DNA of 64,000 bases. It comes from Neptunicoccus cionae. GTDB lineage: Bacteria > Pseudomonadota > Alphaproteobacteria > Rhodobacterales > Rhodobacteraceae. Under the pieces are notes generated by a model that saw only the letters and a list, made by a program, of their open reading frames with translations, made no database searches and was not told where the DNA came from. Positions 15,196-64,000 of this stretch are shown here, one piece after another. Made by a program: the position numbers and the translations under genes. Where the stretch lies: contig NZ_PKOJ01000006.1 of NCBI RefSeq assembly GCF_002860325.1, positions 62,001-126,000 on the forward strand. Reading direction: 5' to 3'. Within the stretch, counting starts at the first letter, position 1. Each line of letters starts with the position of its first letter.

Positions 15196-15253
15196 AATGG
15201 CCCCCTATTCCAGCGGATGCTGACTGTCAAAACCTGAAGTAACCCGGACGGGT

Positions 15254-15837: not shown

Positions 15838-16494
15838 ATGGCCCTTCTTTCGATCTTTCGTCGTGCGTTGGCAGTTTTTCTGTCAGTTTACCTTGGGACT
15901 GTGGTTTTCATTACCGGCTTCGCCACGCTGCAACCCTTGTGGGAAACGGAACAGCCCAAAGCGGATCTGATCGTTGTTTTGGGGGGTGGCATGTCTGCGG
16001 ATGGTCGCCTGCATCGCTCGACCACTGTGCGGGTGGATCGGGGCATCGCGCTTCATCAGGCGGGGGCTGCGCCGAAAATTCTGTTCACAGGCGGCGCACT
16101 GGTTGAAGGGGCACCGGCAGCAGGCCACCAGATGGCACGGCGGGCCATGGATCAGGGGATCGACGCAGCGGCGATCCTGATAGAAGACCAATCCCACTCC
16201 ACGCTGCAAAACGCGCTGTTCAGCCGAACGGACTGGCAAAATGCCTCGCATATCATACTGGTAACAGAGGGATTTCACCTGCCCCGCAGCTGGGCCAGCT
16301 TCAAAGTTTTCGGAGCAAGAGAAATCACCCTGATCCACGCCCGCAGATTCAGGGGCGATAGCATTAAGGGCGGCGCCATAATGGTGCTGCGGGAATCGCT
16401 GGCCTATTGGTTTAATGCCACACGGTATCTGGTCTGGCAGGCGGCGGGCCTATGGACCGCAAGTGATGCAGAAAGGAACACTCTGCTGTACTAA
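15838..16494 (+). CDS. YdcF/ElyC family protein (DUF218)
   Basis: A 218-residue protein with one N-terminal membrane segment (about residues 8-28), then a DUF218 Rossmann-like domain: DLIVVLGGGMSADGR, RVDRGIALHQ, KILFTGG, and SHSTLQNALFSR. The family includes SanA and ElyC, linked to envelope integrity and polysaccharide metabolism; the chemistry is not firmly known. The ATG at 15838 follows AAAGGA and starts the membrane helix. The frame extends to 15661, but that part is not family-like. Converges on the ABC exporter with a 10 bp gap. Confidence 0.85.
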   Translation: MALLSIFRRALAVFLSVYLGTVVFITGFATLQPLWETEQPKADLIVVLGGGMSADGRLHRSTTVRVDRGIALHQAGAAPKILFTGGALVEGAPAAGHQMARRAMDQGIDAAAILIEDQSHSTLQNALFSRTDWQNASHIILVTEGFHLPRSWASFKVFGAREITLIHARRFRGDSIKGGAIMVLRESLAYWFNATRYLVWQAAGLWTASDAERNTLLY

Positions 16495-44141: not shown

Positions 44142-44426
44142 CGCACTCAAATCCCTTTACTACACTCACCTGCCGGAAACAGCGCCCGACAGTTAAACCG
44201 GTGTGGAACACGGGCATGATTAAACACCAGGTCCACACGCAGGAAATGACGGATAAAATGGGCAGAATTGCGGCCAAACAAAGTCGATAAAAAATGAAAA
44301 CAGCCCAATTTTACCCAATATTTTGATATAAATCGTAAAAAACCGGATATTTTACGCAAACACGGTTCGCTGCGCTTTTGCGGGTGACAATCAAATTTTG
44401 GAACGATCCATTTCGGGGGACAGGCG
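44142..44426. promoter_or_regulatory. AT-rich divergent promoter region of the two glycosidase-like genes
   Basis: The 285 bp between the divergent starts hold no gene. The stretch around 44270-44360 is clearly AT-rich against its surroundings (ATATTTTGATATAAAT). No operator is assigned. It presumably holds both promoters. Confidence 0.5.
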
Positions 44427-47488: not shown

Positions 47489-48940
47489 ATGCAGATCGTC
47501 CCGAGCACCCTTCTCGCCCTGCTTCTGGTGGTGATGCTGATGAAACAGGGGCCGCAACGGGGCCTGCACTGGTTTTTCATCATGTCCCCCTTTGGCGCTG
47601 CGGCTGCATTCAATATGCCTGCGGTCGGCGGGGCCTCTATCGGGATCATTGATTTAGGTGCCCTGGTGCTCTTTGCACTGGTTTTTTCAGGCCCCAACGG
47701 ACCGGCAAGGATTGTGGGGACAATGCGATTTGGACAGCCCGGCTTCTATCTGCTGCTGCTGACGCTTTATTGCGTTGTCGCCACCTTGATATTTCCACGG
47801 CTCTTTGCCTATCAGACGGAAGTTTTCGGCATTTCGCGCGCGGACAACAAGACCGAGATCATTTCGGTTTTCCTGCGCCCCACGACCGGCAACATCACGC
47901 AATTATTCCGCCTGATGCTGGATGTGCTGGCATTCTTTGCGGTAGCGACGCTGTTCCGTATCAAGCCGGATTTTGACAAGGTTCTCAAGGCGATGATCGC
48001 TGCAACGGTGGTGAACTTCGCGCTCGGCTGGCTAGATGTCCTGACCTTTGCGGCGGGTGCGCCCGAAATACTCGATCCGATCCGCACGGCAAACTATTCC
48101 ATGCTGGTAGATCACAAAATGGCAGGGCTGAAGCGGATGATCGGCGGCTTTCCCGAAGCGTCCTCTTTCGGTTTTTATACACTCGGTCTGTTCGGCTTCT
48201 GGCTTCGTTATTGGATCTCCGGCCCACCGTCCCGCACAGCGCTCTTCTGTCTGATCGCAACAGGCATTGTCCTGCTCCGCTCGACCTCTTCCTCGACCTA
48301 TGTCGCTGTGGTGGCCCTGCTGCTGGTGATGGGGCTGTTTGCGTTGGTAGACAGCCGCAAGGGGCATGTGCGCAAACAGGCGATGGTTGTGACCCTGATC
48401 GTGTTGCTTGCGGTCTGGCTTTTCGCCATGACGGGCTTTGCCGCTTATCAGTTCCTCGAACCGGTCAGCGATTTTTTTGATACCGTGCTGTTTGACAAGG
48501 CCGATAGCCAGTCCGGCGTGGAACGGATGAGCTGGAACGTACAGGCCTGGCAGAATTTTCTTGATACCAACATGATGGGTGCCGGACTTGGCAGTATCCG
48601 TGCTTCAAACTGGTTTCTGGCCTGTCTGGGGAGCATCGGCATCGCGGGAACTGCGCTTTACCTGTTGTTTCTGGGCGGGTTGTCACGGGCACGCATCCGG
48701 CAGGGTTCAGTGCAGGATACGGCCATATTACACAGTCTTAAAACCGCCTGCCTTGCGCTGGTAATTTCCGCACTGCTGACAACGCCAACACCGGATCTGG
48801 GAATCTTCTTTTTCGTGCTGGCAGGATTGATCACAGGACTTGCCCGCGGGGCTGCTTTAGAATCACTTAAAGAAGCGAAAGAGACCTCTCCTTCCATTGT
48901 TGAGCGAAACGGGACAATCGCGCAGCGCGTTATTCCTTAG
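47489..48940 (+). CDS. Wzy/O-antigen-ligase-like polysaccharide polymerase
   Basis: A 483-residue inner-membrane protein with about ten to twelve hydrophobic segments and a large periplasmic loop (about residues 310-370) that holds the O-antigen-ligase-type segment VERMSWNVQAWQNFLDTNMM with GAGLGS after it. It would join repeat units of the exopolysaccharide on the periplasmic face. The context between a glycosyltransferase and a Wzc homologue supports polymerase rather than LPS ligase. Confidence 0.82.
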   Translation: MQIVPSTLLALLLVVMLMKQGPQRGLHWFFIMSPFGAAAAFNMPAVGGASIGIIDLGALVLFALVFSGPNGPARIVGTMRFGQPGFYLLLLTLYCVVATLIFPRLFAYQTEVFGISRADNKTEIISVFLRPTTGNITQLFRLMLDVLAFFAVATLFRIKPDFDKVLKAMIAATVVNFALGWLDVLTFAAGAPEILDPIRTANYSMLVDHKMAGLKRMIGGFPEASSFGFYTLGLFGFWLRYWISGPPSRTALFCLIATGIVLLRSTSSSTYVAVVALLLVMGLFALVDSRKGHVRKQAMVVTLIVLLAVWLFAMTGFAAYQFLEPVSDFFDTVLFDKADSQSGVERMSWNVQAWQNFLDTNMMGAGLGSIRASNWFLACLGSIGIAGTALYLLFLGGLSRARIRQGSVQDTAILHSLKTACLALVISALLTTPTPDLGIFFFVLAGLITGLARGAALESLKEAKETSPSIVERNGTIAQRVIP

Positions 48941-49062: not shown

Positions 49063-51258
49063 ATGTACAATCGCAAGCCCCCATTTGAGGACGGTTTCTT
49101 CCCGATGAAGCGGATCGGGTCAGATGATCGGGATATGGTTGACCTTAAGCAGCTTGCGCAAATGATCTGGCGGCGACGCAATCTTATCATCCTCTCAACG
49201 CTGGTGTTCGGAGTTCTGGCATATGTGCTCGTCTCCCAGATTACGCCGACTTACAGCGCTGAATCCAAAGTCATGCTCGACCCGCGCAAAAGTCAGGTGA
49301 CAATAGGCGAGGATGTCGTCTCCGATCTCGACATAAACGACCAGCTCGTGCTTTCCGAAGCGGCGGTGATTAAATCCAACCTGCTTATCGAAGAGGTTAT
49401 CGCCGAAATCGGCTTCAGCGGGCTGGCCATCCTTGATCCGGCGCACCAGCCCCCCGGTTTGAAAGACCGCGTGAAAACAGTGGCGCGGGGTTTGGGATTA
49501 ATGAAGACGCCTGAACCGCCGACACCGGAACAGGCGCTGCGCAGCAAGATCGAAACACTGGTCTATGTGATCCGCAAAAACCTCTCCGTGCGGCGCGAAG
49601 GCAAATCCTTCGTCATCAGCATCACAGCCAAAACGGAAAGCCCGCAACTCTCGGCCTTACTGGCCCAGACCATTGCGGAAAAATACATCGAACAGCAGTT
49701 GGAGAACCGCCAGAATGTCGCCAAACAGGCGACCGCATGGATTGAAGAGCGGCTTAAAATCCTGCGCAAGGAACTGGAAGAAGCGCAGGCTGCCGGTGTC
49801 CGCAGCCGGATGGCCAACCTGCAAGCCGACGGCACCAGTTTGCAGGCAATCTCGCAACAATTGTTCGAACTGACAACCAAGCTGTCCGAAGCACAAGGAG
49901 ACCGTACCATTGCAGAGGCAAGCCTCAACCAGCTTGAGGTGATCGTGGCCGAACAGGGAGTCAGAAAGGCCGGCACATTGCTGACCTCCCCCCAGTTGGA
50001 AGTGCTTAACGCCGAACGGGTCAAATTGACCATCGAAGACGGTGTCTGGGCGCGAAATTATGATGCCGAACACCCGTCCCGCAAACGTTTGCGCAGCCAG
50101 ATCGACGTGATCGAGGCAGAGATGGTCGCCGAAGTCGAAAAGATCATCGAGCAGAAAAAGGGCGAAGTGCAACTGGCGCAAGCCCGCGAAAGATCCATCC
50201 AGTCCAATATGGAACAGATGCAGCAACGGATGATTGCGATTTCCACGAACGAACTGGATCAGGAAGAATTGCAACGCAAGGTAAACTCGGCACGGCTGGC
50301 TTATGAACAACTGCTGAACCGCCTGACAGAGACCCGCAGTCAGGAACAGTTGCAAAAAGCGGATGCGCGGATCATCGAACAGGCCACTGTGCCGGGATCG
50401 CCCTCTGCTCCGAAACCCAAACTTATCGCAGTTTTGGGGGCGATGCTTGGCATGGCCGTAGGCTTTGGCGCGACCTTTTATTTGGGGTTTGCCTCAAAAA
50501 GCTACCGCAGCGAAGATGATATTGAAGCGGATACAGGCCTGCCTGTTCTGGCTTCCTTGCAAGCGGGTGAATGGGACAATCCGGTCGACAGTTATCTGGA
50601 CGTGATGTACGCGCCCAACAGCGAATATGCCGAGCGCATCCGCCAGTTGCGCACCTCGGTTCTGATGCATCTGCCTGCGGGTAAAACGCAAAAGATTCTG
50701 GTGACGTCTTCCACACCGGATGAAGGCAAGACGACGACAACACTGAACCTTGCAGCGATGATTGCGAAGACAGGAAAATCCGTGATCCTTGTAGATTGCG
50801 ACCTGCGCCGCTCCGGTCTGGCTGCGCAATTCGGCTGGGATATGAAATTCGGCCTGTCGGACTATCTTGAACGGGCCTGCGATCTGGATCAGGCCGTTTA
50901 TTCGGACACCCACATGCCCTTTGACATCCTGACCTCTAACGGCGCCCATGCGCAAACAGTAGATGCGCTGGGACAGGATAAGCTGGCAGAAATCATGGAC
51001 CTGCTGGAACAAAGCTATGATGTGATCATCATCGACTCGCCGCCGGTTCTGGCGGTGGCTGACGGGCTGATGCTGGCGCGCGCTGTTGATAGTCTGGTGT
51101 TTGTGGTGCGCTGGAATGAAACGCCCAAACAGGCGGTTAAAAAGGCGCTTGGAATGCTCGGAGATGCCCGTGCACGACCCAGCGGTCTGGTCTTTAACAT
51201 GGTGGACCCGAAGGAATATCTAACAGAATTTGTCGGGGGTTACGCCTATGAAGAATAA
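49063..51258 (+). CDS. Polysaccharide biosynthesis tyrosine autokinase (Wzc/ExoP type)
   Basis: A 731-residue fused chain-length regulator and kinase. The N-terminal Wzz domain starts after a membrane helix (residues 45-65); a long coiled-coil stretch (190-400) faces the periplasm; a second helix lies near 455-475; and the C-terminal kinase has a modified Walker A (SSTPDEGKTTTTLNLA), Walker A-prime VDCDLRRSGL and Walker B DVIIIDSPPVLAVADG. The tyrosine tail is short (EYLTEFVGGYAYEE). AGGAG precedes the ATG; a TTGACA lies about 75 bp upstream of the start, but no convincing -10. It overlaps the next glycosyltransferase by 11 bases. Confidence 0.92.
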   Translation: MYNRKPPFEDGFFPMKRIGSDDRDMVDLKQLAQMIWRRRNLIILSTLVFGVLAYVLVSQITPTYSAESKVMLDPRKSQVTIGEDVVSDLDINDQLVLSEAAVIKSNLLIEEVIAEIGFSGLAILDPAHQPPGLKDRVKTVARGLGLMKTPEPPTPEQALRSKIETLVYVIRKNLSVRREGKSFVISITAKTESPQLSALLAQTIAEKYIEQQLENRQNVAKQATAWIEERLKILRKELEEAQAAGVRSRMANLQADGTSLQAISQQLFELTTKLSEAQGDRTIAEASLNQLEVIVAEQGVRKAGTLLTSPQLEVLNAERVKLTIEDGVWARNYDAEHPSRKRLRSQIDVIEAEMVAEVEKIIEQKKGEVQLAQARERSIQSNMEQMQQRMIAISTNELDQEELQRKVNSARLAYEQLLNRLTETRSQEQLQKADARIIEQATVPGSPSAPKPKLIAVLGAMLGMAVGFGATFYLGFASKSYRSEDDIEADTGLPVLASLQAGEWDNPVDSYLDVMYAPNSEYAERIRQLRTSVLMHLPAGKTQKILVTSSTPDEGKTTTTLNLAAMIAKTGKSVILVDCDLRRSGLAAQFGWDMKFGLSDYLERACDLDQAVYSDTHMPFDILTSNGAHAQTVDALGQDKLAEIMDLLEQSYDVIIIDSPPVLAVADGLMLARAVDSLVFVVRWNETPKQAVKKALGMLGDARARPSGLVFNMVDPKEYLTEFVGGYAYEE

Positions 51259-52459
51259 CGGTTTTACACCGCTGCGCGAACAGGCGGACCTTTCGCGCGG
51301 CACGGCATCAGCCCTGTATGCTCCAGCGCGATTGCACACTGTCGGGTCACAGCCCCGCGTGGCAATCATCCATTACTGGTTGGTGGGGATGCGCGGCGGC
51401 GAAAAGGTGCTGGAATCCCTGTGCCGGATGTACCCGCAGGCAGATATTTTCACCCATGTTTACACCCCCGAGACCATCAGCGATCTGATAAATGGTCATA
51501 CGGTCAAAACAACCTCTGTTTCGCGGCTTCCTATGGCAGCGAAAATGTATCAGAAATACCTGCCCTTCATGCCCCGCGCATTAGAGGAGATCGACCTGAC
51601 CGGATATGATCTGGTGATTTCGAGCGAGGCTGGCCCCGCCAAGGGCGTGATCGCGCCACCGGAGGCACCCCATTTGTGCTACTGCCATTCCCCTATGCGG
51701 TACCTTTGGGACCAATATCACACCTATCGCAACGGTGCTGGGGTGATCACACGGGCTCTGATGCCCCATCTGGCCCACGGGTTGCGGTCTTGGGATGTAA
51801 CAAGTGCCGCGCGTGTAGACGGGTTCGTAGCCAACTCAAACCATGTGGCCGCGCGTATCCGCAAATACTGGCGCCGTGACGCCGATGTCGTGCATCCCCC
51901 TGTGGCTGTCGAGGATTTTGCACCGGTTTCCAAAAGCGAAAGAGGCGATTTCTACCTTTGGGCAGGCGAACTGGCATCCTACAAACGCCCCGACATTGCG
52001 ATAGAGGCCTTTCGACATTTGAAAAAGCCGCTGGTCGTGATCGGTGGGCCGGACAAGACGTGGAAAAAGCTGGCCCGCACCGCACCGGATAATGTGACAT
52101 TCCTGGGTAAAGTGCCCTTCCCCGTGCTGAAGGACCATATGGCCCGCTGCAAGGCACTGATCTTTCCTGGAGAAGAGGATTTTGGCATTATTCCGGTCGA
52201 AGTTATGGCCTCGGGCCGCCCTGTGATCGCCTATGGTCGCGGCGGGGCGCTCGATACTGTGCTGGACCGTCAGACAGGCCTTTTGTTTCCGGACTGTTCG
52301 GTGGGAGGACTTGTCGAAGCGGTAGAAACCTTTGAGGCAGAGCAACTGGACGGATTGAACCCGCTTGCATTGACCCGACATGCAGCAAACTTCGATGAAA
52401 CCGCATTTCAGGCGGGCATTGCGCGGAATATTGGCGATCTCGGCTTCGCCCCGCGTTAG
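51248..52459 (+). CDS. Family 4 glycosyltransferase, EPS locus
   Basis: A 403-residue GT-B enzyme; the ATG at 51248 lies inside the end of the autokinase gene (11 base overlap), so it is coupled to it. The donor-site motif is GEEDFGIIPVEVMASGRPV (E-x7-E), with HYWLVGMRGGEKVLE at the N-terminus and CYCHSPMRYLWDQY in the acceptor part, which is the usual pattern of this mannosyltransferase-like group. The donor sugar is unproven. Confidence 0.88.
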   Translation: MKNNGFTPLREQADLSRGTASALYAPARLHTVGSQPRVAIIHYWLVGMRGGEKVLESLCRMYPQADIFTHVYTPETISDLINGHTVKTTSVSRLPMAAKMYQKYLPFMPRALEEIDLTGYDLVISSEAGPAKGVIAPPEAPHLCYCHSPMRYLWDQYHTYRNGAGVITRALMPHLAHGLRSWDVTSAARVDGFVANSNHVAARIRKYWRRDADVVHPPVAVEDFAPVSKSERGDFYLWAGELASYKRPDIAIEAFRHLKKPLVVIGGPDKTWKKLARTAPDNVTFLGKVPFPVLKDHMARCKALIFPGEEDFGIIPVEVMASGRPVIAYGRGGALDTVLDRQTGLLFPDCSVGGLVEAVETFEAEQLDGLNPLALTRHAANFDETAFQAGIARNIGDLGFAPR

Positions 52460-52465: not shown

Positions 52466-54268
52466 TCAGGGCGTTGGCAGTGTAAACAGTTCCACAAAAC
52501 TTTCAGCCCCTGCACCACTGTGCAGTGTGATCTGTGCCATCTGCGGATGGCTTTCCTGATGGGGGTCACCGCCTGTATTCATGTTTCGGGCAAGACGCGG
52601 AAAGCTGCTGCCCGCAACATGCAACCGCAACTTGTGACCGGTTTTGACGCGATAGGCGATATGGCGCAGGGAAACCTCTGCACGGTACCCCTGATCCGGC
52701 TGCATAAGCTCGGGCGCGTCAAAACCGTTCCGGTAACGCAGCCGCAAGGCACCCTCTTGTATCAGTATCGAGCGTCCGTCCGGCCCCACATCCGTCAGCC
52801 GCACGACCAGATCCGTATCCGGAACATTGGTTGAAACATGTAATACAGCCCTGAGCGGTCCGGCAATATCAAGGGGATTTCCGAACGGTTCGCTGGTATA
52901 GATCAAAAGATCTTCCCGCGCCTCCAGCGGGGATTGGTCCAAAGGCCCCGCACGGGAGTCCGGGTCGCCCGTACAACAGATCGCACCGCCAATGGTCGGC
53001 ACCGGATCGGCAGGATCGGACCGGAAGATTCGATCATCTGGTGCCGCGTCAGGTGTGCTGCTTAATGCTTCGCCCCGCAGATAAAGTTTCTGCGCGCGGG
53101 CGGCCCGTGGCGGCCACACCTCTGTGGCGAGCCAGTCGTCGCGGTTGAGCATATACGGCTGAAAAGTTGGCAGGGACGGTTCCACCTGCCCTTTCAGATG
53201 CGCATCCATAAACGATAGGTATATCCCGTCCAAATCGGTTGTACCCTGCGGAGACACCGCCACATCGCCCACACTTCCGTTGTAAAGCGGCCCTGCCATA
53301 TCGCAATGGGTTGCCGGAGCGATCAAGAACCGGCTTTCAGGGCTGTTCTTGCGGATCATGTCAAACAGCTGAAAGCTGAAACCGATGCCGTAATCATACC
53401 ACGTATCTACCATCAGGGTTGGTATATCAAAGCTGTCCTGATCCGAGATATATCCCCAAGCCTTGTGAATTTGAGGATCGTCAAACCCGCTTAACAACTC
53501 TTCAAAGTCCGTGTCATCCGCGCGGTAACGGGAAACTGCCTCTGATACCGGCAGAGTCTGCAACGCTTTCTTGTAGTCTGCGGCCGGAGCGTGCATCAGA
53601 TCACCTATCTTGCCGCCCTGCCCGTGAAACCAGCCGAAACCGGAGGCAAGGTTCAGGATTCCCCCTTCAAAAAACCCGAAAAAACCATAGGCACCTTGCG
53701 CAGTCCCGATTGAGCCGCCGGCCCCCATAGGGATCATCGCGCGGTGGGCGGGGTGGCGTTCTGCGGCCAGCAACACCTGCGCTTCGCCCAGCGCAGAGCA
53801 TCCTATTGTGCCCACACGCGGCAACGCCCAGTCTTGCGCGACAATCCAGTCAAGTGTGGCCACGCCGTCGCCCCGTTCGTTCGGGTATGGTGCGAACACC
53901 CCGCCAGAGCCGTAACGCCCGCGCATGTCCTGCACCACAACAGCGTAATCGTGGGCGGTAAACAGACGAACCCAATGCAGTGCTTCGCCGTATACCCGCT
54001 TACCATAAGGTAGCCGCACCAGAACCACCGGCTTTTGCGCAGCGCCGCCTTCGGGCAGATATATGTCTGTCGCCAGCGTCACACCATCGGGCATTACGAC
54101 CTGATGTTCCTGCACGTCGGTTTCAACCAATAAGCCTGCCGCAAATGCGCGAAACTCCAACATCTGTTTTACAGGGCGCAGAAAGGCGCGGCCTTGTTCC
54201 GTCAAGACCAGAACAGCGGCAAGCAAGGACAACAAGAACGTCAGCCGGATCAGGACGGATTTCAACAT
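52466..54268 (-). CDS. Membrane-anchored CocE/NonD family hydrolase
   Basis: An alpha/beta hydrolase of 600 residues with an N-terminal membrane helix (residues 5-24). The catalytic Ser lies in GTIGCSALGEAQV, the Asp in LMVDTWYDYGIG and the His in LIAPATHCDMAG, and the C-terminal 220 residues are the jelly-roll of X-Pro dipeptidyl-peptidase-type enzymes. The family hydrolyses esters and amides, including acyl-peptides. It is divergent from the PPTase gene and next to the PKS/NRPS operon, so it might cleave, mature or release the product (inference). Only 6 bp separate its end from the EPS glycosyltransferase. Confidence 0.86.
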   Translation of the reverse strand: MLKSVLIRLTFLLSLLAAVLVLTEQGRAFLRPVKQMLEFRAFAAGLLVETDVQEHQVVMPDGVTLATDIYLPEGGAAQKPVVLVRLPYGKRVYGEALHWVRLFTAHDYAVVVQDMRGRYGSGGVFAPYPNERGDGVATLDWIVAQDWALPRVGTIGCSALGEAQVLLAAERHPAHRAMIPMGAGGSIGTAQGAYGFFGFFEGGILNLASGFGWFHGQGGKIGDLMHAPAADYKKALQTLPVSEAVSRYRADDTDFEELLSGFDDPQIHKAWGYISDQDSFDIPTLMVDTWYDYGIGFSFQLFDMIRKNSPESRFLIAPATHCDMAGPLYNGSVGDVAVSPQGTTDLDGIYLSFMDAHLKGQVEPSLPTFQPYMLNRDDWLATEVWPPRAARAQKLYLRGEALSSTPDAAPDDRIFRSDPADPVPTIGGAICCTGDPDSRAGPLDQSPLEAREDLLIYTSEPFGNPLDIAGPLRAVLHVSTNVPDTDLVVRLTDVGPDGRSILIQEGALRLRYRNGFDAPELMQPDQGYRAEVSLRHIAYRVKTGHKLRLHVAGSSFPRLARNMNTGGDPHQESHPQMAQITLHSGAGAESFVELFTLPTP

Positions 54269-54300
54269 AGGCCTGAACCTCTCGACCTGTGGGGGGAGTT

Positions 54301-55008
54301 ATGCCAGTGTCGCCGGAACAGCTGAAGCGACAGGGCAATGCCGGTTTGAATGTGAATATTGATCTTTGGGTCTGGGATCTGGACGCGCGGCAGGATGTTG
54401 ACCTGTCGGTGCTGTGCAACGAAGAACAGCAGCGCGCCGGTAGATTTGTGCAGCCCTTGCACCAAAACCGCTATGCCGTTGGCCGCGCAACGCTGAGACA
54501 TATTCTGGCGCGATACACGGGCATCTCCGCATCGGGACTTGCGTTTGACTATGGGCCAAACGGAAAGCCGTCCCTTTCGGGGGAAGTGTTCTTCAACCTC
54601 AGCCATTCCGAGAACACTGCCGCTCTTGCTGTCACCAAAGGCTGCGATCTCGGGCTCGACATCCAGCATTACCGCCCAGTGGAAACGGACCTTGCGGAAC
54701 GCTTCTTTTCCCTGTCCGAACGAAAAGAACTGGCAGCCATAGGGGCTGAGAGGTTTGCTGACGGGTTCTTCCGGTGCTGGACCCGCAAGGAAGCGGTGTT
54801 GAAAGCCCATGGTGAAGGGCTTTCGGTGGAACTGGACAGTTTTGACGTTACCCTGACACCGGACGCGCCACCACAACTGCTGCGCTACGCACCCGATCCG
54901 TCTTGTGTAGAAAATCTGACTTTGCATCATCTTGATTTCGCACCAGAACTGGTGGGCGCGATTGCCGTATTCAGCCACGCACGCCCTGTTACCATTACAC
55001 GCCGCTGA
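54301..55008 (+). CDS. 4'-phosphopantetheinyl transferase (Sfp type)
   Basis: A 235-residue enzyme that loads phosphopantetheine on carrier proteins. Motifs are NLSHSENTAALAV, GLDIQHYRP (Mg site; the usual middle Glu is Gln) and FRCWTRKEAVLKAHGEGL (Lys, Glu). The start is unclear: the ATG at 54301 is close behind GGGGGGAG, and a GTG at 54289 is possible. It is convergent with the PKS/NRPS operon, whose three visible carrier domains it should activate. Confidence 0.9.
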   Translation: MPVSPEQLKRQGNAGLNVNIDLWVWDLDARQDVDLSVLCNEEQQRAGRFVQPLHQNRYAVGRATLRHILARYTGISASGLAFDYGPNGKPSLSGEVFFNLSHSENTAALAVTKGCDLGLDIQHYRPVETDLAERFFSLSERKELAAIGAERFADGFFRCWTRKEAVLKAHGEGLSVELDSFDVTLTPDAPPQLLRYAPDPSCVENLTLHHLDFAPELVGAIAVFSHARPVTITRR

Positions 55009-55037
55009 CACGGCCTTTAAAGCTGAACCGCCATCGT

Positions 55038-57761
55038 TTAGCGCGCCAGAAAGCTTTCGATTTTTTGCGCCAGCTCTCCGGTGCCACTGATCTGTCCCTT
55101 GACGACGGAAACATCATCAATCGACACAGTCTGTAGATTGTCCCCTGCGATTTTTTCCCAGCCGATAGAGGGTAGGAAGCCCTTACCGGTCGGTGTAATC
55201 CGCGTCACAACGTGGAGGATCGGAAAGTCCAACGGTTCGGGACGGTACACGTTCCGCGCCTGCGAGATATACTCGACAAAGCCTTCCTGTTCGGCTGTCA
55301 TATCCGTTGCGCGCACACGGTCCATAAACCCGAGCTTCGTGGCCATTGTCAGCACACCTGATTTTCGCACGATCCGGTAACTGCCCAGCATGGCTGCCAA
55401 AGACATCCGCCCCTTGCGCACCTGCCGCATCCGGTTGCCCAGCGCATAGAGTTTTTCGCGCCGGCGCTGGATCCGGTCAGCACGGATACCGGCCACATAA
55501 CCGGGCTCCCAGCAATCCTTGATCACCACACCAGTAATTTCGTGCCCTTTGGCTTGTAAGACCCGCGCGGCTTCCAGCGCAATGTTGCCGTGCACACAAG
55601 CCCCGAACAACAGATACGGTCCTTGCGGCTGATGTGCCTCTATGACCTTGGCATATTCGGCGGCAATCTCCAGAAAGCTGCGTTCGGACTGGTCGATGCC
55701 CCGTGTGCCATCAAACAGACGCACACAGACCGACGGACGGCTTTGGCTGAAATGTTCTGAAGCGTTCAGGATCAGGCTGATGTCATTGATCGAGATAATC
55801 TGCTGACCGTCCCCGTCTGTGCGGATCGGTTCGACCCGCCAGTCGGTTTCAACCGCTAGGGCCTGCGGCGCGATCTGAGGTGCAAGATGGGCCACCAGTT
55901 CGGAAACGGTCGGCGACTCGTAAACAGCCGCCACCCCAAGACTGACATTCCACTCCTTGCGGATGCGTGACACCATGCGCACCGCCAGCAGGGAATGCCC
56001 CCCCAACTCGAAGAAGCTGCGATCTGTGGGGATGCTGCGCTGTTCCAGCAAATCCTGCCAGATGGCAATTATCCCTTGTTCCAGATCGTTTTGCGGCTTC
56101 GCTGCTTTGCTTTGCAGCGCAACCACTTGCGCTGGAACGGGCAACTGCGCCTGATCCTGCGGCAAGGTCGCCAGCACGCTAATTCCGGCAAGCGCTGCGT
56201 CTTCGCCCATGGCTGACAGATGCTGCATCAAAATCTGCGGCAGGGTCTCCAGCGCCATCAGGGGTGACGGATTTGCCGTGACATAGCCCCACCGCCCGCG
56301 CGGTTGATCGACCGTTACCGCTTGGGCCACGAAGGGATGGGATTGCAGCGTTTGTGCAATCGGGTCTTCTGGCAAGGTCGAATCTTCCTCAGCTTGTGCA
56401 TTACCTTGCACCAGCGGCAGGTTCCCCAGCGTGAAAGCTCCGGTCTCGAACACATGTGCAAAGCTTTGTTTGATCATTTGCAGCAGGGCTTTGATCGTCT
56501 CTGGCTTATAGAGGTTCGGTGAATATTCGATATTCAAACGCCAGCCGGTTGGACGCCCGATTATGACGATGTCCAGATCGCGCGAGGCCCCCGGAGTGAA
56601 AGTCGGTTTTGAGACCATCGCGAAATCGCCATAGGTTTCATCTTCCATAAATACATGCTGGAGATTGAAGTTCATCGAAATCAGCGGCGCACGAGAGGCA
56701 TCGCGCACAGGATTCACCACCTCGACCAGTTTGGAGAACGGCAGGTTTTGATGAACCAGCGCGCCTTCGACAACGGATTTCGTTTGCGCGACATGGTCTG
56801 CAAAACTCTTGCTCGCACGTGTGGGCAGTCGCAACACCTGGTTGTTGATGAACGGGCCGATCAGCGGTTCCAGCTCCACCTCTTGGCGGCCTGCAATCGG
56901 GGTGCCAAACAACACCTCGTCCGCCCCCGTTACACGGTGCAGCGCAGCCGATGCGACCGCCGCACCGATTACAAAGGGCGAGGTACCGTTAGCCTTGGCC
57001 ACACGTTCCATCGCTTCGGCAAAATCATCCTGCAAGGCGGTATTCAGATAGGAAATTTCAGTATTGCGGGCCTTGGGACGGGGGAAATCCGTCGGCAGTT
57101 CAAAATATGGCGCGTCTTTCATCTGTTCACGCCAATAGGCGGTATCCTCCTCCAGCACACCGGACGCAAGGTACTGTTGCTGCCAGAGGCTGAAATCACC
57201 GTATTGCAGGGGCAGTTCCGGCAGATCAGGCGTTTTTCCGGCGGCAAAGGCAGCGGCGCTGATGCCAATTTCACGCCCCATGACGCCGATTGAATAGCCA
57301 TCATAGATACTGTGGTGAGCGACCGTCAGCAAACGGCCCCGATCAGAAGCCAGCATAACCAGCGTGGCGCGGATCAATCCGGTGTTGGACAGGTCGAACG
57401 GATAACGGGCAACTTCCGCTGCGATCTCTGCCAGACGATCGTCTTGCGCTTTGCCGTGCAGGTCGGAAATGTCGCGCACCTCCAGATCGAAATCCGCATG
57501 GGTCAGCACCTGTTGCACAGGCGTCCCGTCCTTTTCGACAAAGCGCGTGCGCAGGATTTCATGACGCGCGATAACCAAACGGTAGGCCCGCTCCAGATCA
57601 TCAGGCAAAAACCGGCCCTGCACTTCCCAGCTTATGGCCACATTCAGCGCCGGGTTTCCGGGATGCAACTGGTCGAGAAACCAGAACTGCTGCTGGGCGG
57701 TGGACAGCGGAAACTCCGCTACCACCTGTTCGGGTTCAAACTGCGAATTGATAACGTTCAT
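55038..57761 (-). CDS. NRPS termination protein: C domain, A-domain remnant, PCP, degenerate thioesterase
   Basis: A 907-residue protein. Residues 15-450 are a condensation domain with the intact HHxxxDG motif (H149, H150, D154). Residues 472-555 look like only the C-terminal subdomain tail of an adenylation domain (HPFVAQAV at one end, ISVLATLPQ at the other); the catalytic A core is missing. A peptidyl carrier follows with S590 in FELGGHSLLAV. Residues 640-907 are thioesterase-like, but the nucleophile position is C722 (FGACVHGN) and the position of the catalytic His appears to be D883. Its start overlaps the stop of the large synthase by four bases (ATGA), so the two proteins are made together. 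It is the end of the assembly line visible here. Confidence 0.9.
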   Translation of the reverse strand: MNVINSQFEPEQVVAEFPLSTAQQQFWFLDQLHPGNPALNVAISWEVQGRFLPDDLERAYRLVIARHEILRTRFVEKDGTPVQQVLTHADFDLEVRDISDLHGKAQDDRLAEIAAEVARYPFDLSNTGLIRATLVMLASDRGRLLTVAHHSIYDGYSIGVMGREIGISAAAFAAGKTPDLPELPLQYGDFSLWQQQYLASGVLEEDTAYWREQMKDAPYFELPTDFPRPKARNTEISYLNTALQDDFAEAMERVAKANGTSPFVIGAAVASAALHRVTGADEVLFGTPIAGRQEVELEPLIGPFINNQVLRLPTRASKSFADHVAQTKSVVEGALVHQNLPFSKLVEVVNPVRDASRAPLISMNFNLQHVFMEDETYGDFAMVSKPTFTPGASRDLDIVIIGRPTGWRLNIEYSPNLYKPETIKALLQMIKQSFAHVFETGAFTLGNLPLVQGNAQAEEDSTLPEDPIAQTLQSHPFVAQAVTVDQPRGRWGYVTANPSPLMALETLPQILMQHLSAMGEDAALAGISVLATLPQDQAQLPVPAQVVALQSKAAKPQNDLEQGIIAIWQDLLEQRSIPTDRSFFELGGHSLLAVRMVSRIRKEWNVSLGVAAVYESPTVSELVAHLAPQIAPQALAVETDWRVEPIRTDGDGQQIISINDISLILNASEHFSQSRPSVCVRLFDGTRGIDQSERSFLEIAAEYAKVIEAHQPQGPYLLFGACVHGNIALEAARVLQAKGHEITGVVIKDCWEPGYVAGIRADRIQRRREKLYALGNRMRQVRKGRMSLAAMLGSYRIVRKSGVLTMATKLGFMDRVRATDMTAEQEGFVEYISQARNVYRPEPLDFPILHVVTRITPTGKGFLPSIGWEKIAGDNLQTVSIDDVSVVKGQISGTGELAQKIESFLAR
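56097..56348 (-). other. Remnant of an adenylation domain inside the terminal NRPS protein
   Basis: About 84 residues between the C and PCP domains align by eye with the small C-terminal subdomain of an A domain (a HPxVxxAV start and a VLxxLP end), with the catalytic lysine segment lost. No A3, A5 or A7 motif (SGTTGxPKG, GPTE, YRTGD) is present in this protein. Confidence 0.65.
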
Positions 57762-60700
57762 TGGACAATCCCCACACCCCGCCGCGCACCATTGCGGAAG
57801 TCTTTCAATGACGGCGCAGCGGCGACTTTCGGCACATCTGCCCCGACCCGACTGTCTGCGAAGGCAGCGAGCTCTGAAATGCTCGGGTGATCCAGCAGGT
57901 GTTTGGCTTGCAGGTTCAGACCGGCCTCAACCAGACGGGCCGCAATGCGGAAAACCATCAGGGAATCTACACCAAGATCAAACAGTGTGTCTGTGGTCGA
58001 GATCCCCTCTTGCCCCAGCACGTTCGTCCAGATTTCGAGAATTTTCTCTTCAGTCGGAGTCTTTGCAGTTTGGCCGGAGAGCGCGACGGTATCGACAAGG
58101 ATGTCCGGCGCTGTGTCAGGTTCCGGCAGGCTTTTACGATCCAGCTTTCCGTTGGCCGTCTGAGGCAAGGCTTCAAGCATCACATAAGCCTGCGGCACCA
58201 TATAGTTCGGCAGCACCGCACCAAGCGACTGGCGCATGTCTGAGGCGTCCGGCGCGGCACCGTTTTCAGCCACGATATAGGCCACAAGCTGACGATCGCC
58301 GCTGGCACGGGTCTTCACGTCCACTGCTGCCTTATGCACTCCGTCAAGGCTGCGCAGCCGGCTTTCTATTTCACCCAGTTCAATGCGGAATCCGCGCAGT
58401 TTCACCTGCGTATCTATCCGGCCCAGAACCTCTATCGTGCCATCGGCGTTCTTGCGGGCAAGATCGCCCGTACGGTAGAGCCGCTGTGGCGTACCGTTCA
58501 CTGTTACGCTGCGAAATGCCTTACCGGTCAGATCGGGGCGATCCAGATACCCTTTGGCCAGCCCGTCCCCGCCTATATTCAGCTCTCCGGTTACACCGAC
58601 AGGAACCGGCTTGTCGGTGTTATCAAGGATCAAGAGATCGGTATTTGCGATGGCGTGACCGATGGTGATCGGTTCATCTGCCGCAACCTTTGCAACAGCC
58701 GACCAGATCGTGGTTTCAGTCGGACCATACATGTTCCACAGTTCCGCCCCCTGCGACAGCATCCTTGCGGCAAGATCGCGGGGCAGTGGTTCACCGCCCG
58801 CCAGCAGCTTCATGCCAGCTTTTGGCGCGAAGCCCGCATCGAGCACCATATCCCACAGGGTTGGCGTGGCCTGCATGACAGTAATGTCGCCCTGTTCCAA
58901 CCGTTCCACCAGCGCGAAACCGTCCAGAACCTGTTCCTTGCTTGCAATCACGCATTTCGCGCCCACAGCCAGCGGCAAGAAAAGTTCCAGCACTGCGATG
59001 TCAAACATCACGGTGGTAACGGATAGCAGTGTATCCTGCGCCGTAAGACCGGGCTTTTGCGCCATGGAGTTCAGGAAGTTTACCACCGCACGGTGCGGGA
59101 TCTCCACACCCTTCGGTGTTCCGGTCGTTCCCGAGGTAAAGATGATATAGGCACTGTCTTCGGGATCATGGGCCACTGGTGCAGGTGTCGTCCCTGCACG
59201 GGCCTTGAACACGTCAATCAGAACCGCGCCGGTCTCTGCCACATAAGACAGACGCGCGGGCGTGTCAGTGACCACAGCGGCCGCACGGGCGGTTTCAAGG
59301 ATCAGCTTCAGACGGGCTTCGGGCTGGGTCGGGTCCAGTGGCAGATAGGTATGCCCTGCCTTCAGGATCGCCAGCAGTGCCACAACCATATTGACCGAGC
59401 GGTCCATCAACAGGCCGATCCGCTGCCCAGCCCCTGTCACCTGCGCCTGAATATGGGCCGCAAGTGCATCGCTGTCCTGTTGCAGGGCGCGGTAGGTCAC
59501 CTGCCTTGTGTCATCTTCCAGCGCCACAGCATCCGGCGTAGCCAAAGCCATCCGCTCCACCAGAGTCTGGATCATGGCCGAACGGTCATAGTCCTGATAC
59601 CCGTTATCTGCCGCTACCGCCTGTGCCGGCAACGTCAACGACAGGTCCTGCACAGCCTGCTGCGGATTTTCTGAGAGCCCGCGCAAGACCTGTTCCAGAT
59701 GTCCGACCCAACGATCGATAGTAGATCCTTTATAAACTTCGCTGTTGTAATCCACATCCACCCGCAGGCCGTCTCTGGCTTCTACCACATTGAAGAACAT
59801 GTCGAAATTCGACGCGGCTTTCCGGTTCGGGGCGAGCTTTACCGACACCGCTCCCATATCCAGATCTTCCGGCAGGGTTTCCAGATTGAACTGGATTTCC
59901 GTCAGCGGCAGCCGGTTCAATGCCCGTGGCACGTTCAGATCCTGTACCAATGTCCCGAAGGTGTAATCCTGATGCTCAAAGGCATCCATGACGGCGCCGC
60001 TCACCCGCTTCAAATGGGCTGACACCGGTTCTGCCGGATCAAAAGCCGCACGTACCGGCAGGAAATTCACGGCGTGGCCGATCATATGCGGGTTGGCAAG
60101 CTGCGCCTGACCGCCCGTCGGCACACCGATCACCACGTCATTGCTCCCTGACAGACGGCCAAGTGTCATTTGCACGGCAGCAAACAGGGTAGCGAAAAGG
60201 GTGCAGCCCTGTTTCGCACCGGCCTTCCGGGCTGCAACCATCACATCCGCGGGGATGAACCGCGTCAGGGTCGCACCGGCATAACTGCGCCGCTGTGGGC
60301 GCGGATGGTCATGGGGCAGCTCCGGCAGGGCAGGAATATCCTGATATTGCGCGGCCCAGAAGGCGCGGGTTTCGGGGCGTGCTGTACCCTGCTGTTCTGT
60401 ACGGGCATGAGCCGCAAAGGAAGCAGGCACCGGCAGGTCACCGGCCTTACCACCGGTTTCCGCGCGGTAGAATGCTGCGAGTTCTTCGAAGATGATGTTA
60501 TAAGACCAACCGTCACAAATGATGTGATGGGCGTTCAGCACCAATCCGTGATTGCCCTGACCGTTCGTCACCAGACGCGCCCGAACGGGCGGTTTTGCTG
60601 TCAGGTCAAAGGCATAGCGAGCTTCTTCATCCGCAATCCGGTCCAGAACCGCATCTAATGTACCATCAGGTGCCGGAATCTGCTCCACCTCCAAATGGTA

Positions 60701-63700
60701 CGCGGGCCGGACGGTGAAATGAGAGCCGGTTGCATCAAAGTCCGCGCGCAAAGCATCGTGGCGCGCAACAATGCGGTCCAGCGCACGGTTCAGCGCGGCC
60801 ACATCAAGCGGTCCCTCCAGATGCAGCACCGCGCCTTCGTTGAAACAAAGGGAGGCCGCCTCGCCAAGCTGGCTGGTCATCCAGATTTCCCGCTGGCCTT
60901 CGGTGAGGGGAAAGATTTTCCCTGCGTATTCTTCAGCAGAAGGTGCTGCCGGTTGCTCGGTGATCTTGCCCTCACCAAGCAGAATGCCCTGTTCCTGAAG
61001 GGTGCGGACGGCACGCTCGAAACTCTCCGCCACGGCGTTCACTTCGGCATCGCCGTGTTCTGTGGTCAGGAACCCGCAGAACCCGTCCATCAGGTGCACC
61101 CCGTCATAGCGCATCAGCGGATAGAGCAGGCTTGCGCGCGCATCAAATCCGGTGACATTGGGCACGATCCAGCTTGAATGCCCTGTGACCAGTTCCGGCA
61201 GGCCACGGCTGACCAGAAAAGCGTTCATCCGCTTGCGCAACGCAATTGCGCGCGCGGCAGTATCCTTCCACAGACGATCGCCGTGGTTTTCCATATGCTC
61301 CAGCGTGGCATCAATGGCCGCCAGAACCAGCGGATGGCGCACAAAAGTCCCTGCCACATAGGTCGGCGCGACCTCCGGTTTGCTGTCATCGCCATAGGAC
61401 CAGAACCCGCCGTCGAGCGCATCAAGGAAACGCGCATCGCCCGCCAGCACGCCGATGGGCATACCGCCGCCAACAACCTTGCCATAAGTGGCCATATCGC
61501 CTTGAATACCCCATTCGCCCTGCACGCCTTTGGCGTGGGTGCGAAAGCCTGTGACCACCTCGTCAAACACCAAAGCGGCATCGATGTCTTTGGTCAACTT
61601 GCGCAAGGAGCGCACGAATTCAACAGGTTGCACCTCGGGGTGGCGGCTCTGGATCGGTTCGATAATGACCGCCGCAATCTCTTTGGCGTTCTCCTTGATC
61701 CATTCAAGCGAAGTCTCTTCGCCATAAGGCAGCACCACCATATTGGACAGGCTGCTGCGCGGAATACCGGAAGCCAGCGGCAGGGCCGCAGGGGCACCGC
61801 CACGGGATTTCCCCTTGATCAGCACCTCGTCAAACTGGCCGTGATAGTCATTGCCAAAGACGACAACCTTATCACGCCCTGTCACGGATCGCGCCAGCCG
61901 CATGGCAGACATGACCGCCTCAGAGCCGGTGTTGCAGAATGTGACCCGTTCATGTTCCACCATTCGGGCGAAACGTTCAGCCACGGCACCGGCAATTTCC
62001 GATTGCGGCCCGATGGGATAGCCCCGCTCCATCTGCGCCTGCACTGCACGGGTGACAAACTCCGGCGAGTGACCGAAAGCGGTCTGGCCGAAACCGTTCA
62101 CCAGATCAATAAATGTGTTCCCGTCAATATCCCACAGATGCGCCCCTTTCGCGCGATCAGCCACCACCGGAAAGGCCAGTTCCTTCCATTCGGGATGAAA
62201 GCCGGACACTGTGCGCGGGTCCGCATGCACGCGGCGGTATTTCTGGGCGAGCGCTTTGGATTTGGGAAACTTCGCGCTGTAGCGGCTTGCCAGATCACGG
62301 GCAAAGTCCTGTTGTGCGGGTGTCAGCTCCGCGCCTGCAAGGTTCGGTCCACGCCCCACCTTAAAGGCGGCAGGTTTGGCTTTGGCCGGTTCATCGGCTT
62401 CCTCTGGCGTGGCCTGTACCACAGGCGCAACCTGCGGCGCTGTCGGGGTCTGCGCAACCGGTGCGGGCGCCGCCACAGCCGCCTGCTGCGGGATTGAAGA
62501 ACCACCGCCGAGTGCTTGTAGTTGCTGGGCAAAAACTGCCTGCATGGTTTGCATCTGCGCCTGCATTACACCGGCCGCATCCCTGGCCAACGGGGGTGCA
62601 GGCACCGCCGATACAGGCGCCACATCTGCCACCGGAGCGGGAGCAACAACAGCAGCGGGCGTTTCTTCCACTGCGGCAGGCTCAACCGTCTCCGGTGTAT
62701 CGGCGGGCAAGGTCTCGTCCAGTTTGCCCGCCAAATCAGCGATTGTCGGATATTCCGTCAGCAAGCTGCGGAAGGTCAGGGTCACATCATATTTCTGCAA
62801 CAGCGCCTGTGAAACCTGCCCCAGAAACAGGGAATCAAACCCCAGTTCCAGATAGGTCACATTCACGTCGTCAGCGCTCAGATCCTCCCCCGACAGGTCT
62901 GACAACATGGCCAGAAGCTCTCCGCAGAAACGCTCGGTACGGGGAACAGGGGAAACATTTGCATTCATGGTCATGACCGGATCACTCTTTACTGTTTCAC
63001 AAGGAAGGGCCGCAGGTTGGGCCGTTTGGGATTGGGGGACGGTTCGGGTTTGCACCGGTTCGGGCGAAACCCAGTGGCGTTTGCGCTGGAAGGCGTAGCC
63101 CGGCAAGGAGACCCGCCGGTTGCCCCGCGCCCCAGAGAGCGCCCAGTCCACCGGCACCCCCGCGCCCCAGAGTTTTGAAAAGGCGGCAGCCATGGTAATC
63201 TCGTCGTCAGATGTTTGGGTGTGATCTGATAGCGACTGTATTATTCCACCATGGCTGCCGCGCTCCAGAGTCTGCGCAGCAAAAGCTGAAAGCGTGCGTC
63301 CAGCACCTACTTCCAGCAAAATGGCAGCCCTGTCTCGTGTGGCGGTGCGGATGCCCGCCTGAAAATTGACACAGGCCCGCGCCTGTGTGGCCCAATAGGA
63401 CGGATCAACCGCCTGTTCGGGTGTAATCCATTCCCCTGTGACGCAGGACACATAAGGGACTTTCGGTTCGTTCAGGCTGAATGCCATGAATTCACGGGAC
63501 AGGGCCTCTGATACCGGCGCCATCATCGCGGAATGAAACGCGTGGGAGGTATGCAGGCGGCTGGTCGCCAGCCCTGCCCTATCCAGCCGTTCCTTTAGCG
63601 CATCAATCGCATTTTCCGGCCCCGCCACCACCTGCAACTTTGGTGCATTCTGCGCGGCAAGATCGACGTCACCGTTCAGGAAAGGCGTCAACTCGTCCAG

Positions 63701-64000
63701 CGCAGCACGTACCGACAGCATCGCGCCGGACGGCTGATCCTGCATCAACTGACCGCGCTTGGCGATCATCTTCAGTCCGGTTTCAAAATCAAATACACCG
63801 GAGATTGCGGCAGCGGCAAACTCCCCGACCGAATGACCAATCATCGCTGTGGGCTGCACACCTCGGGACTGCCACAACCGCGCGTTTGCATATTGGATCA
63901 GGAACAGTGCAGGTTGCGTCAGTCGCGTATCGCGCAAGGCCCGCGCCGCCACTTCGTCGGACACATCAGAAAGGCAGAGGACTTCGTTAATATCGAGCCC
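57758..64000 (-). CDS. Hybrid PKS/NRPS: (KS outside)-AT-ACP-aminotransferase-C-A(Gly)-PCP, truncated by the window edge
   Basis: The reading frame is open to the right edge; 2080 residues are visible. Numbers count from the codon at 63964. AT 1-300 has the Ser45 motif GHSVGE and HAFH (141-144), typical of malonyl-CoA. ACP has S378 (LGFDSLF). An Ala/Pro linker (420-540) leads to a PLP aminotransferase (545-1000, K829 in TYGKVVGGG) of the glutamate-semialdehyde aminomutase type. C 1013-1450 has HHIICDG (1146-1152). A 1455-1950 has SGTTGTPKG, YGPTETT and YRTGD. PCP has S2001 (LGVDSL). The layout resembles the aminotransferase modules of microcystin McyE and iturin/mycosubtilin synthases, which turn a beta-keto acyl chain into a beta-amino acyl chain before condensation. 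The predicted unit is a beta-amino acyl-glycine. A KS upstream is expected but not visible. Confidence 0.93.
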   Translation of the reverse strand, partial: GLDINEVLCLSDVSDEVAARALRDTRLTQPALFLIQYANARLWQSRGVQPTAMIGHSVGEFAAAAISGVFDFETGLKMIAKRGQLMQDQPSGAMLSVRAALDELTPFLNGDVDLAAQNAPKLQVVAGPENAIDALKERLDRAGLATSRLHTSHAFHSAMMAPVSEALSREFMAFSLNEPKVPYVSCVTGEWITPEQAVDPSYWATQARACVNFQAGIRTATRDRAAILLEVGAGRTLSAFAAQTLERGSHGGIIQSLSDHTQTSDDEITMAAAFSKLWGAGVPVDWALSGARGNRRVSLPGYAFQRKRHWVSPEPVQTRTVPQSQTAQPAALPCETVKSDPVMTMNANVSPVPRTERFCGELLAMLSDLSGEDLSADDVNVTYLELGFDSLFLGQVSQALLQKYDVTLTFRSLLTEYPTIADLAGKLDETLPADTPETVEPAAVEETPAAVVAPAPVADVAPVSAVPAPPLARDAAGVMQAQMQTMQAVFAQQLQALGGGSSIPQQAAVAAPAPVAQTPTAPQVAPVVQATPEEADEPAKAKPAAFKVGRGPNLAGAELTPAQQDFARDLASRYSAKFPKSKALAQKYRRVHADPRTVSGFHPEWKELAFPVVADRAKGAHLWDIDGNTFIDLVNGFGQTAFGHSPEFVTRAVQAQMERGYPIGPQSEIAGAVAERFARMVEHERVTFCNTGSEAVMSAMRLARSVTGRDKVVVFGNDYHGQFDEVLIKGKSRGGAPAALPLASGIPRSSLSNMVVLPYGEETSLEWIKENAKEIAAVIIEPIQSRHPEVQPVEFVRSLRKLTKDIDAALVFDEVVTGFRTHAKGVQGEWGIQGDMATYGKVVGGGMPIGVLAGDARFLDALDGGFWSYGDDSKPEVAPTYVAGTFVRHPLVLAAIDATLEHMENHGDRLWKDTAARAIALRKRMNAFLVSRGLPELVTGHSSWIVPNVTGFDARASLLYPLMRYDGVHLMDGFCGFLTTEHGDAEVNAVAESFERAVRTLQEQGILLGEGKITEQPAAPSAEEYAGKIFPLTEGQREIWMTSQLGEAASLCFNEGAVLHLEGPLDVAALNRALDRIVARHDALRADFDATGSHFTVRPAYHLEVEQIPAPDGTLDAVLDRIADEEARYAFDLTAKPPVRARLVTNGQGNHGLVLNAHHIICDGWSYNIIFEELAAFYRAETGGKAGDLPVPASFAAHARTEQQGTARPETRAFWAAQYQDIPALPELPHDHPRPQRRSYAGATLTRFIPADVMVAARKAGAKQGCTLFATLFAAVQMTLGRLSGSNDVVIGVPTGGQAQLANPHMIGHAVNFLPVRAAFDPAEPVSAHLKRVSGAVMDAFEHQDYTFGTLVQDLNVPRALNRLPLTEIQFNLETLPEDLDMGAVSVKLAPNRKAASNFDMFFNVVEARDGLRVDVDYNSEVYKGSTIDRWVGHLEQVLRGLSENPQQAVQDLSLTLPAQAVAADNGYQDYDRSAMIQTLVERMALATPDAVALEDDTRQVTYRALQQDSDALAAHIQAQVTGAGQRIGLLMDRSVNMVVALLAILKAGHTYLPLDPTQPEARLKLILETARAAAVVTDTPARLSYVAETGAVLIDVFKARAGTTPAPVAHDPEDSAYIIFTSGTTGTPKGVEIPHRAVVNFLNSMAQKPGLTAQDTLLSVTTVMFDIAVLELFLPLAVGAKCVIASKEQVLDGFALVERLEQGDITVMQATPTLWDMVLDAGFAPKAGMKLLAGGEPLPRDLAARMLSQGAELWNMYGPTETTIWSAVAKVAADEPITIGHAIANTDLLILDNTDKPVPVGVTGELNIGGDGLAKGYLDRPDLTGKAFRSVTVNGTPQRLYRTGDLARKNADGTIEVLGRIDTQVKLRGFRIELGEIESRLRSLDGVHKAAVDVKTRASGDRQLVAYIVAENGAAPDASDMRQSLGAVLPNYMVPQAYVMLEALPQTANGKLDRKSLPEPDTAPDILVDTVALSGQTAKTPTEEKILEIWTNVLGQEGISTTDTLFDLGVDSLMVFRIAARLVEAGLNLQAKHLLDHPSISELAAFADSRVGADVPKVAAAPSLKDFRNGARRGVGIVQ

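Follow-up and report, generated by a model that had tools for sequence, protein, structure and literature searches.

A 64,000-nucleotide stretch of the Neptunicoccus cionae genome (contig NZ_PKOJ01000006.1, positions 62,001 to 126,000; referred to here as the window) encodes a 907-residue protein, P0001, that ends a hybrid assembly line of polyketide synthase (PKS) and nonribosomal peptide synthetase (NRPS) type. P0001 has a condensation (C) domain, a peptidyl carrier protein (PCP) domain and a thioesterase (TE), and in place of an adenylation (A) domain there is only what appears to be a remnant of its C-terminal subdomain. We find that this cut-down module forms a conserved predicted family, that its C domain is the most conserved and constrained part, and that it most likely arose when an ancestral full C-A-PCP-TE module lost its A core by deletion, as judged from a single genome with a full-length counterpart. 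We tentatively favor, at somewhat less than even chances, a reading in which the C domain passes the chain to a free acceptor, which may be a sugar belonging to the polysaccharide locus alongside.

Absence of the adenylation core from P0001

The original prediction placed an intact C domain with HHSIYDG and an intact carrier serine (S590) on either side of an A-domain tail. The two intact domains are borne out, with Pfam Condensation and PP-binding matches, the HHxxxDG motif at residues 149–155 and a carrier serine in GGHSLL, all as expected of an NRPS termination module (Table 1). The complete A domain of such a module is absent, as had been claimed: the Pfam scan finds no AMP-binding core (PF00501) in P0001, the gap between its C and PCP matches is 111 residues, and none of the six frames of positions 56040–56450 (411 bases) is long enough for an A core. 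A frameshift or assembly error concealing an A domain, a possibility raised at the outset, is rejected on the same grounds, and is very unlikely because L012, a protein from another assembly that is 93% identical to P0001, has the identical length of 907 residues.

That the linker is an A-domain tail holds for the family more clearly than for P0001, whose own stretch stays below the curated PF13193 cut-off of 24.5 bits (E 0.12) and is matched about equally well by an unrelated domain of unknown function. A profile of 14 long family linkers aligns with A-domain C-terminal subdomains at an hhalign probability of 98.4% (E 4e-15). When 50 windows tiled along the upstream hybrid synthase were used as a control, the top three (94%, 56% and 16%) all overlapped the A C-terminal subdomain, and the best window clear of it reached 4.3%. 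PF13193 also exceeds its cut-off in the linker stretches of all seven relatives tested, with the whole L001 protein slightly under it at 22.2 bits. We therefore regard the remnant as real, if weak in P0001 taken alone; an unrelated fold for residues 472–555 appears unlikely in the light of the profile match, the window control and the relatives. By way of the family profile, the layout corresponds to that of glidonin, where the C-terminal subdomain is all that is left of A ahead of the thiolation (T) domain.

The gene upstream encodes a hybrid synthase of 2816 residues, which begins outside the window with a PCP and a ketosynthase (KS) (L011:5759-14209, minus strand) and continues through an acyltransferase (AT), an acyl carrier protein (ACP) and an aminotransferase (AMT). 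The order of the assembly line is thus PCP-KS-AT-ACP-AMT-C-A-PCP / C-PCP-TE. The loading A domain that is present in at least 17 other loci is missing from the hybrid and from the rest of its locus, and as the hybrid starts with a PCP, the starter unit too has to be supplied in trans. Its A domain carries what we take to be a glycine-type code; the code was read in six hybrids.

Table 1. Features of the window discussed in the text.
Feature	Coordinates	Strand	Basis
Termination module protein P0001, C-(A C-subdomain remnant)-PCP-TE, 907 aa	55038..57761	minus	
Condensation domain, residues 16-451	56409..57716	minus	PF00668, 286.6 bits
HHSIYDG motif of P0001 C domain, residues 149-155	57297-57317	minus	
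Putative A-domain C-terminal subdomain remnant, ~residues 470-535	56157..56354	minus	PF13193 13.8 bits, under cut-off; family profile
Peptidyl carrier domain, residues 563-626	55884..56075	minus	PF00550
Carrier serine S590, motif GGHSLL	55992-55994	minus	
Thioesterase-like domain, ~residues 645-905	55047..55829	minus	PF00975 partial; PDB sequence matches; alignment of 24
TE cysteine elbow GACVHG of P0001	55587-55604	minus	
TE KDCWEPG aspartate of P0001	55500-55520	minus	
Upstream hybrid synthase, in-window part AT-ACP-AMT-C-A(putative Gly-type code)-PCP	57758..63964	minus	
4'-phosphopantetheinyl transferase	54289..55008	plus	PF01648
CocE/NonD-type alpha/beta hydrolase	52466..54268	minus	PF02129, PF08530, TIGR00976
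Glycosyltransferase of adjoining polysaccharide locus	51230..52459	plus	PF00534
Wzc-like chain-length determinant / tyrosine autokinase	49063..51258	plus	PF02706, PF13807; TIGR01005 below cut-off
Probable Wzy-type polymerase	47489..48940	plus	PF04932 below cut-off
Glycosyltransferase	46251..47483	plus	PF00534
569-aa protein, relatives in several of the other loci	44427..46136	plus	PF11790 sub-threshold only

A family of A-less modules and its full-length counterpart

We compared 24 A-less proteins from Rhodobacterales and rhizobia, comprising P0001, L012, nine plasmid matches and 13 of the 14 other genomes matched in a draw of 394 genomes of the window's family (15 with a match, its own included). 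Because they were chosen by similarity to P0001, their A-less state is partly by construction. One matched genome, G263, was dropped because an A domain and a reductase-like end are visible in its alignment row, and the sole genome of the window's own genus in the draw gave no match. The plasmid members are nine of the 17 best plasmid matches, with H10 left out as having the same protein accession as H9; the set retains three pairs of near copies (P0001/L012, L003/L035 and L061/L062), and Pfam was run on the whole protein for six of the 24. The reading frame is open in every member, and all 24 linkers between C and PCP are too short to hold an A core, with lengths of 116–155 residues in 14 and 30–53 in nine (30–155 overall). 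The exception is L042, whose linker of 171 residues reflects a second PCP; this protein (L042:4502-7558, minus strand) is a C-PCP-PCP-TE with the motif HSAAVDG and neither A core nor remnant.

A genome from another family of the class, G667, encodes a loading A-PCP, a KS-AT-AMT-C-A hybrid that is related to the Rhodobacter hybrid (58% identity in KS and 59% in AMT), and then a full C-A-PCP-TE protein. The C motif of this terminal module is HHVVADG, its A domain contains NGKIDR, and its TE has both a GWCVGG elbow and a C-terminal GDHF. On the same contig lie a sugar transferase (37%) and, at 26%, a weak match to a flippase. In a tree of C domains all 25 from terminal modules group in one clade (support of 100 in the Shimodaira-Hasegawa approximate likelihood ratio test), with 23 of the A-less C domains as a clade inside it (99), and the C domains of the hybrids form a separate clade (100). 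Because G667 combines the same upstream line with a complete end module, and because its C domain groups with those of the A-less modules, deletion of the A core from an ancestral full C-A-PCP-TE module is the most likely origin of the family; this is what had been proposed from P0001, and the search for full-length ancestors suggested with it found this one genome. L042 sits on a long branch beside G667, and given this position it is possible that the core was lost either once or twice. The remnant, kept in 14 of the 24, changes state at least four times on the tree of 25 and appears to be decaying and to have been lost repeatedly within the family; on the same tree the second histidine of the C motif requires at least five changes and the elbow histidine of the TE two.

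A class-wide draw of 385 genomes was used to look further afield. The best C-domain match of each genome (the window's own excepted) has an A match behind C in its locus. G783 and G784 were rejected as full-length counterparts, since they are C-A-PCP-TE-like with only 32% C identity, and no KS, AT or AMT match lies in the 20 kb covered for each. Among the other TE matches, those resolved at their locus are A-PCP-TE proteins, by Pfam for one match of G471 and for G527, and by an A match for G400 and G627. G394 does encode an 835-aa A-less C-PCP-TE (L144:10389-12893, plus strand) with a C domain 22.5% identical, a motif of HHLLVDR and a cysteine elbow. It has no KS or AMT in 20 kb, and a stand-alone A gene lies about 1.4 kb downstream at 14259–15866. 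It is probably a separate lineage, an independent A-less end module of the trans-loaded type.

Constraint on the module and the fate of its chain

The C motif of the A-less modules varies in its second histidine, being HH in ten of the 24, HQ in ten, HN in two, and HR and HS in one each. By contrast the hybrid C domain keeps HH in 21 of 21 sequences (20 from A-less loci and one from G667), a difference with a Fisher probability of 1.2e-5, not corrected for kinship; other NRPS C domains have HH in 10 of 10. A second peculiarity is an aromatic residue (F or Y) directly before the DG of the motif, found in every A-less module except L042 and in none of 32 other C domains (21 hybrid, ten other, and G667). 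These assembly lines thus offer a natural replicated experiment on the second histidine, which is constant in 21 of 21 copies of one C domain and changed in 14 of 24 copies of the other, a domain strongly conserved in its remaining parts, with G667 as outgroup.

The C domain of the A-less module is also the part under the strongest constraint. In three pairs (P0001/L012, L061/L062 and L063/L064, the last with high synonymous divergence, dS 1.0–2.1) the ratio of nonsynonymous to synonymous substitution rates (dN/dS) is 0.06, 0.08 and 0.095 for C, 0.31, 0.38 and 0.15 for the linker, 0.095, 0.17 and 0.29 for the PCP, and 0.084, 0.14 and 0.16 for the TE. A fourth pair, L001/L033, was set aside with its PCP probably misaligned, and here too C has the lowest value (0.28, with 0.64, 0.93 and 0.37 for linker, PCP and TE). 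Leaving aside L012 (95%), 21 of the 22 relatives are 41–52% identical to P0001 in C, with L042 at 32%, and TE identity is 39–62% in the other rows with a CVHG elbow and 17–23% outside that clade.

The TE of P0001 matches Pfam Thioesterase only in part (best stretch, residues 694–765), with 4zxh as its best PDB sequence match. Across the alignment of 24 the PCP serine, the TE cysteine and the TE aspartate are all constant, and in 23 rows His, Asn or Asp stands in place of the last glycine of the TE elbow. The usual C-terminal histidine, in the motif GWH, is present in 11 members and absent from P0001: the 12 rows with a CVHG elbow lack it, the 11 with Asn or Asp there keep it, and L042 follows neither pattern. 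The elbow histidine might substitute for the one lost from the C-terminus, or the swap might reflect a single old split.

The module genes lie in a predicted Wzx/Wzy-type polysaccharide locus, with the Wzc-like, Wzy-like and glycosyltransferase genes listed in Table 1 and a sugar transferase and flippase just beyond the window. Polysaccharide genes of some kind are near the module in 21 of the 24 loci (19 with a Wzc-like gene, 16 with a strong initiating sugar transferase and 15 with a strong Wzx), a tally in which the queries came from the family's own loci, self-matches are counted, and several loci end early at contig or record ends. Ten control NRPS loci of the class gave no polysaccharide matches, with the limits that family-derived queries could miss divergent genes and that two flanks were short (16 and 27 kb); a phosphopantetheinyl transferase is near only two of them. 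Other genes of the neighborhood include the CocE/NonD-type hydrolase, a similar one being near the module in nine of 24 loci (self-match included), and, at the edge of the polysaccharide locus, a 787-aa protein with RTX-type calcium-binding repeats (41787–44150, minus strand), for which G310 gives the single match among the other 23 loci, a weak one of 54 bits. Antisense to the phosphopantetheinyl transferase runs an open frame of 249 aa (54262–55011, minus strand) that has no Pfam match and is probably spurious. We also note a cyanobacterial PKS/NRPS line that likewise adjoins a polysaccharide locus, on the Pseudanabaena plasmid ABRG53f (L143, 1347–31119), where annotated flippase, glycosyltransferase, Wzy and epimerase genes come immediately after three PKS genes and an NRPS of full C-A-PCP-TE type.

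Three options had been put forward for the carrier, namely loading in trans, use while empty, or condensation by the C domain with a free acceptor. They are the right set, and sequence alone does not settle which applies. We lean toward the free acceptor because it explains why the second histidine varies in the terminal and not in the upstream C domain. The hybrid would make a beta-amino-acyl-glycine thioester, and the terminal C domain, needing no amino acid on its own PCP, would take this chain from the upstream PCP and join it to a free amine or hydroxyl, much as module 13 of the glidonin synthetase does with putrescine. The acceptor would probably be a sugar intermediate of the polysaccharide, because the module genes lie in a Wzx/Wzy-type locus, the gene neighborhood being the basis for this step; the PCP and TE may be retained because they stabilize the protein, serve in editing or act in a later transfer. 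A stronger form, which we consider doubtful at present, holds that beta-amino-acyl-glycine chains are covalent decorations of the Wzx/Wzy polysaccharide, with the A-less module acting as a glycan acyltransferase whose C domain accepts a sugar, in which the second histidine is dispensable and the aromatic residue marks the changed site. If the chain does go to the polysaccharide, natural-product assembly lines would be joined to surface glycans, and rhizobia and roseobacters would have an unrecognized class of peptide-modified exopolysaccharide.

Several observations weigh against the free-acceptor reading. P0001 itself retains HH; the PCP serine and the TE cysteine and aspartate are constant, of which C-domain release should have less need, and a free acceptor by itself leaves the two TE residues unexplained; and mutation of the T13 serine of glidonin also abolished product in vivo (PMC10587159). 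With regard to the sugar, three loci have no clear polysaccharide genes (G253 has none, G346 has just a TIGR04325 methyltransferase, and in G017 the only matches are weak ones to a sugar transferase and Wza). A nearby sugar aminotransferase fails as support for an amino-sugar acceptor, as PF01041 occurs in all 13 genomes scanned and on the module's contig in none; a DegT-type sugar aminotransferase is beside the module in six rhizobial loci only.

The constant serine, cysteine and aspartate, and the HH of P0001, would be explained if the glycine-type A domain of the hybrid loaded both its own PCP and the A-less PCP, giving an ordinary C-PCP-TE with an unchanged product. The terminal A domain of G667 presumably has the same glycine-type pocket as the A domain upstream (DILQLGMIWK, read by eye), and would thus have been redundant. 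There are precedents in CmnI, loaded by CmnA-A1 (PMC12400406), and in SyrE module 9, served by SyrB1 (PMC8949500), and mutation of the second histidine is not always fatal to C activity (PMC11546977). However, the second histidine is lost in 14 of 24 terminal C domains and in none of the 21 upstream ones, which by the code face a glycyl acceptor; the carrier motifs differ, being G[AV]DSL in the upstream PCP of the four of six hybrids in which it was located and GGHSL in the terminal PCP of all six sequences compared; and the distant G394 module has its stand-alone A gene close by, where the window has none. We consider this shared loading rather unlikely, though it is a serious rival to the free acceptor.

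A constant PCP and TE beside a C domain with a variable second histidine would also suit a relay, in which transthiolation moves the chain off the upstream PCP and onto the empty terminal one, with C as a docking or gating platform and the cysteine TE transferring it to the acceptor. Cysteine nucleophiles occur in TEs that do more than hydrolysis, such as ObiF1 and SulM (PMC6668435, PMC11298585). Against this, the part of the literature searched contains no case of a C domain passing a chain by transthiolation to a PCP that is empty, and the TE of the P0001 clade lacks the usual C-terminal histidine in 12 of 12 CVHG rows. We regard a relay as unlikely.

It appears very unlikely that the terminal PCP receives another amino acid from a stand-alone A domain encoded somewhere else in the genome. 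The search for such a domain that had been suggested finds the hybrid A domain as the only AMP-binding match in the window. Of the 28 AMP-binding matches in the genome as a whole, the one closest to the hybrid along the contig is C14:175511, at a distance of about 50 kb; it has little similarity to NRPS A domains (E 6.6e-8 against the loading A protein). A candidate trans-acting activator is a 944-aa protein (C14:298485-299927; L066:229-3063, minus strand) in which A and PCP are joined to an additional C-terminal part; it lies on the same contig, albeit some 180 kb away and with 30% identity. That the module is a degenerate leftover without function, as its variable motif histidine and decaying remnant might suggest, is scarcely credible given a frame open in 24 of 24 and, in three of the four pairs, dN/dS values of 0.06–0.29 across C, PCP and TE.

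Comparison with known systems

Modules without an A domain of their own are already known (SyrE, CmnI, VioI), and the exact plan of C, A subdomain, T and TE is known from glidonin. Module 13 of glidonin GdnB (C13-A*-T-TE, where A* is the C-terminal subdomain only) stands likewise at the end of its line; its C domain condenses free putrescine, and its A*-T part keeps the protein stable (PMC10587159). The likeness is one of the domain plan as described. The glidonin TE has two GxSxG motifs and its described modules are NRPS, whereas here there is one GxCx[HND]G TE and a PKS-aminotransferase hybrid; the second histidine that varies across the A-less family and the polysaccharide locus are further differences.

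SyrE module 9 of syringomycin also ends in C-T-TE and has no A domain itself; it is served by a dedicated A-T protein, none of which is present in this window (PMC8949500). Capreomycin CmnI likewise has no A domain and stands next to modules with one that could serve it, with the differences that its HHxxxD is conserved, that loading by the A domain of another module has been shown, and that it is a T-C protein, apparently without a TE (PMC12400406). Streptothricin ORF18 is a two-domain C-PCP protein with the motif HQxxxDM, whose C domain acylates a free aminoglycoside (PMC11546977). It combines HQ for HH with a free amino-sugar acceptor, and HQ is found in ten of the 24 family members, P0001 having HH; the same review describes the role of the second histidine in HHxxxDG as still debated.

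The cysteine TEs of AB3403, ObiF1 and SulM share the nucleophile of the family TE, in which the aspartate is placed as in AB3403 (4zxh); the family differs from them in the elbow glycine, changed to His, Asn or Asp in 23 of 24, and in the loss of the C-terminal histidine from the P0001 clade. In a partial search of the literature we found no paper on an NRPS/PKS line within a polysaccharide locus of these groups. As far as we know from this literature, what the A-less module adds to the systems already described is a conserved family, a full-length counterpart, the contrast in the second histidine together with the aromatic signature, and the polysaccharide setting.

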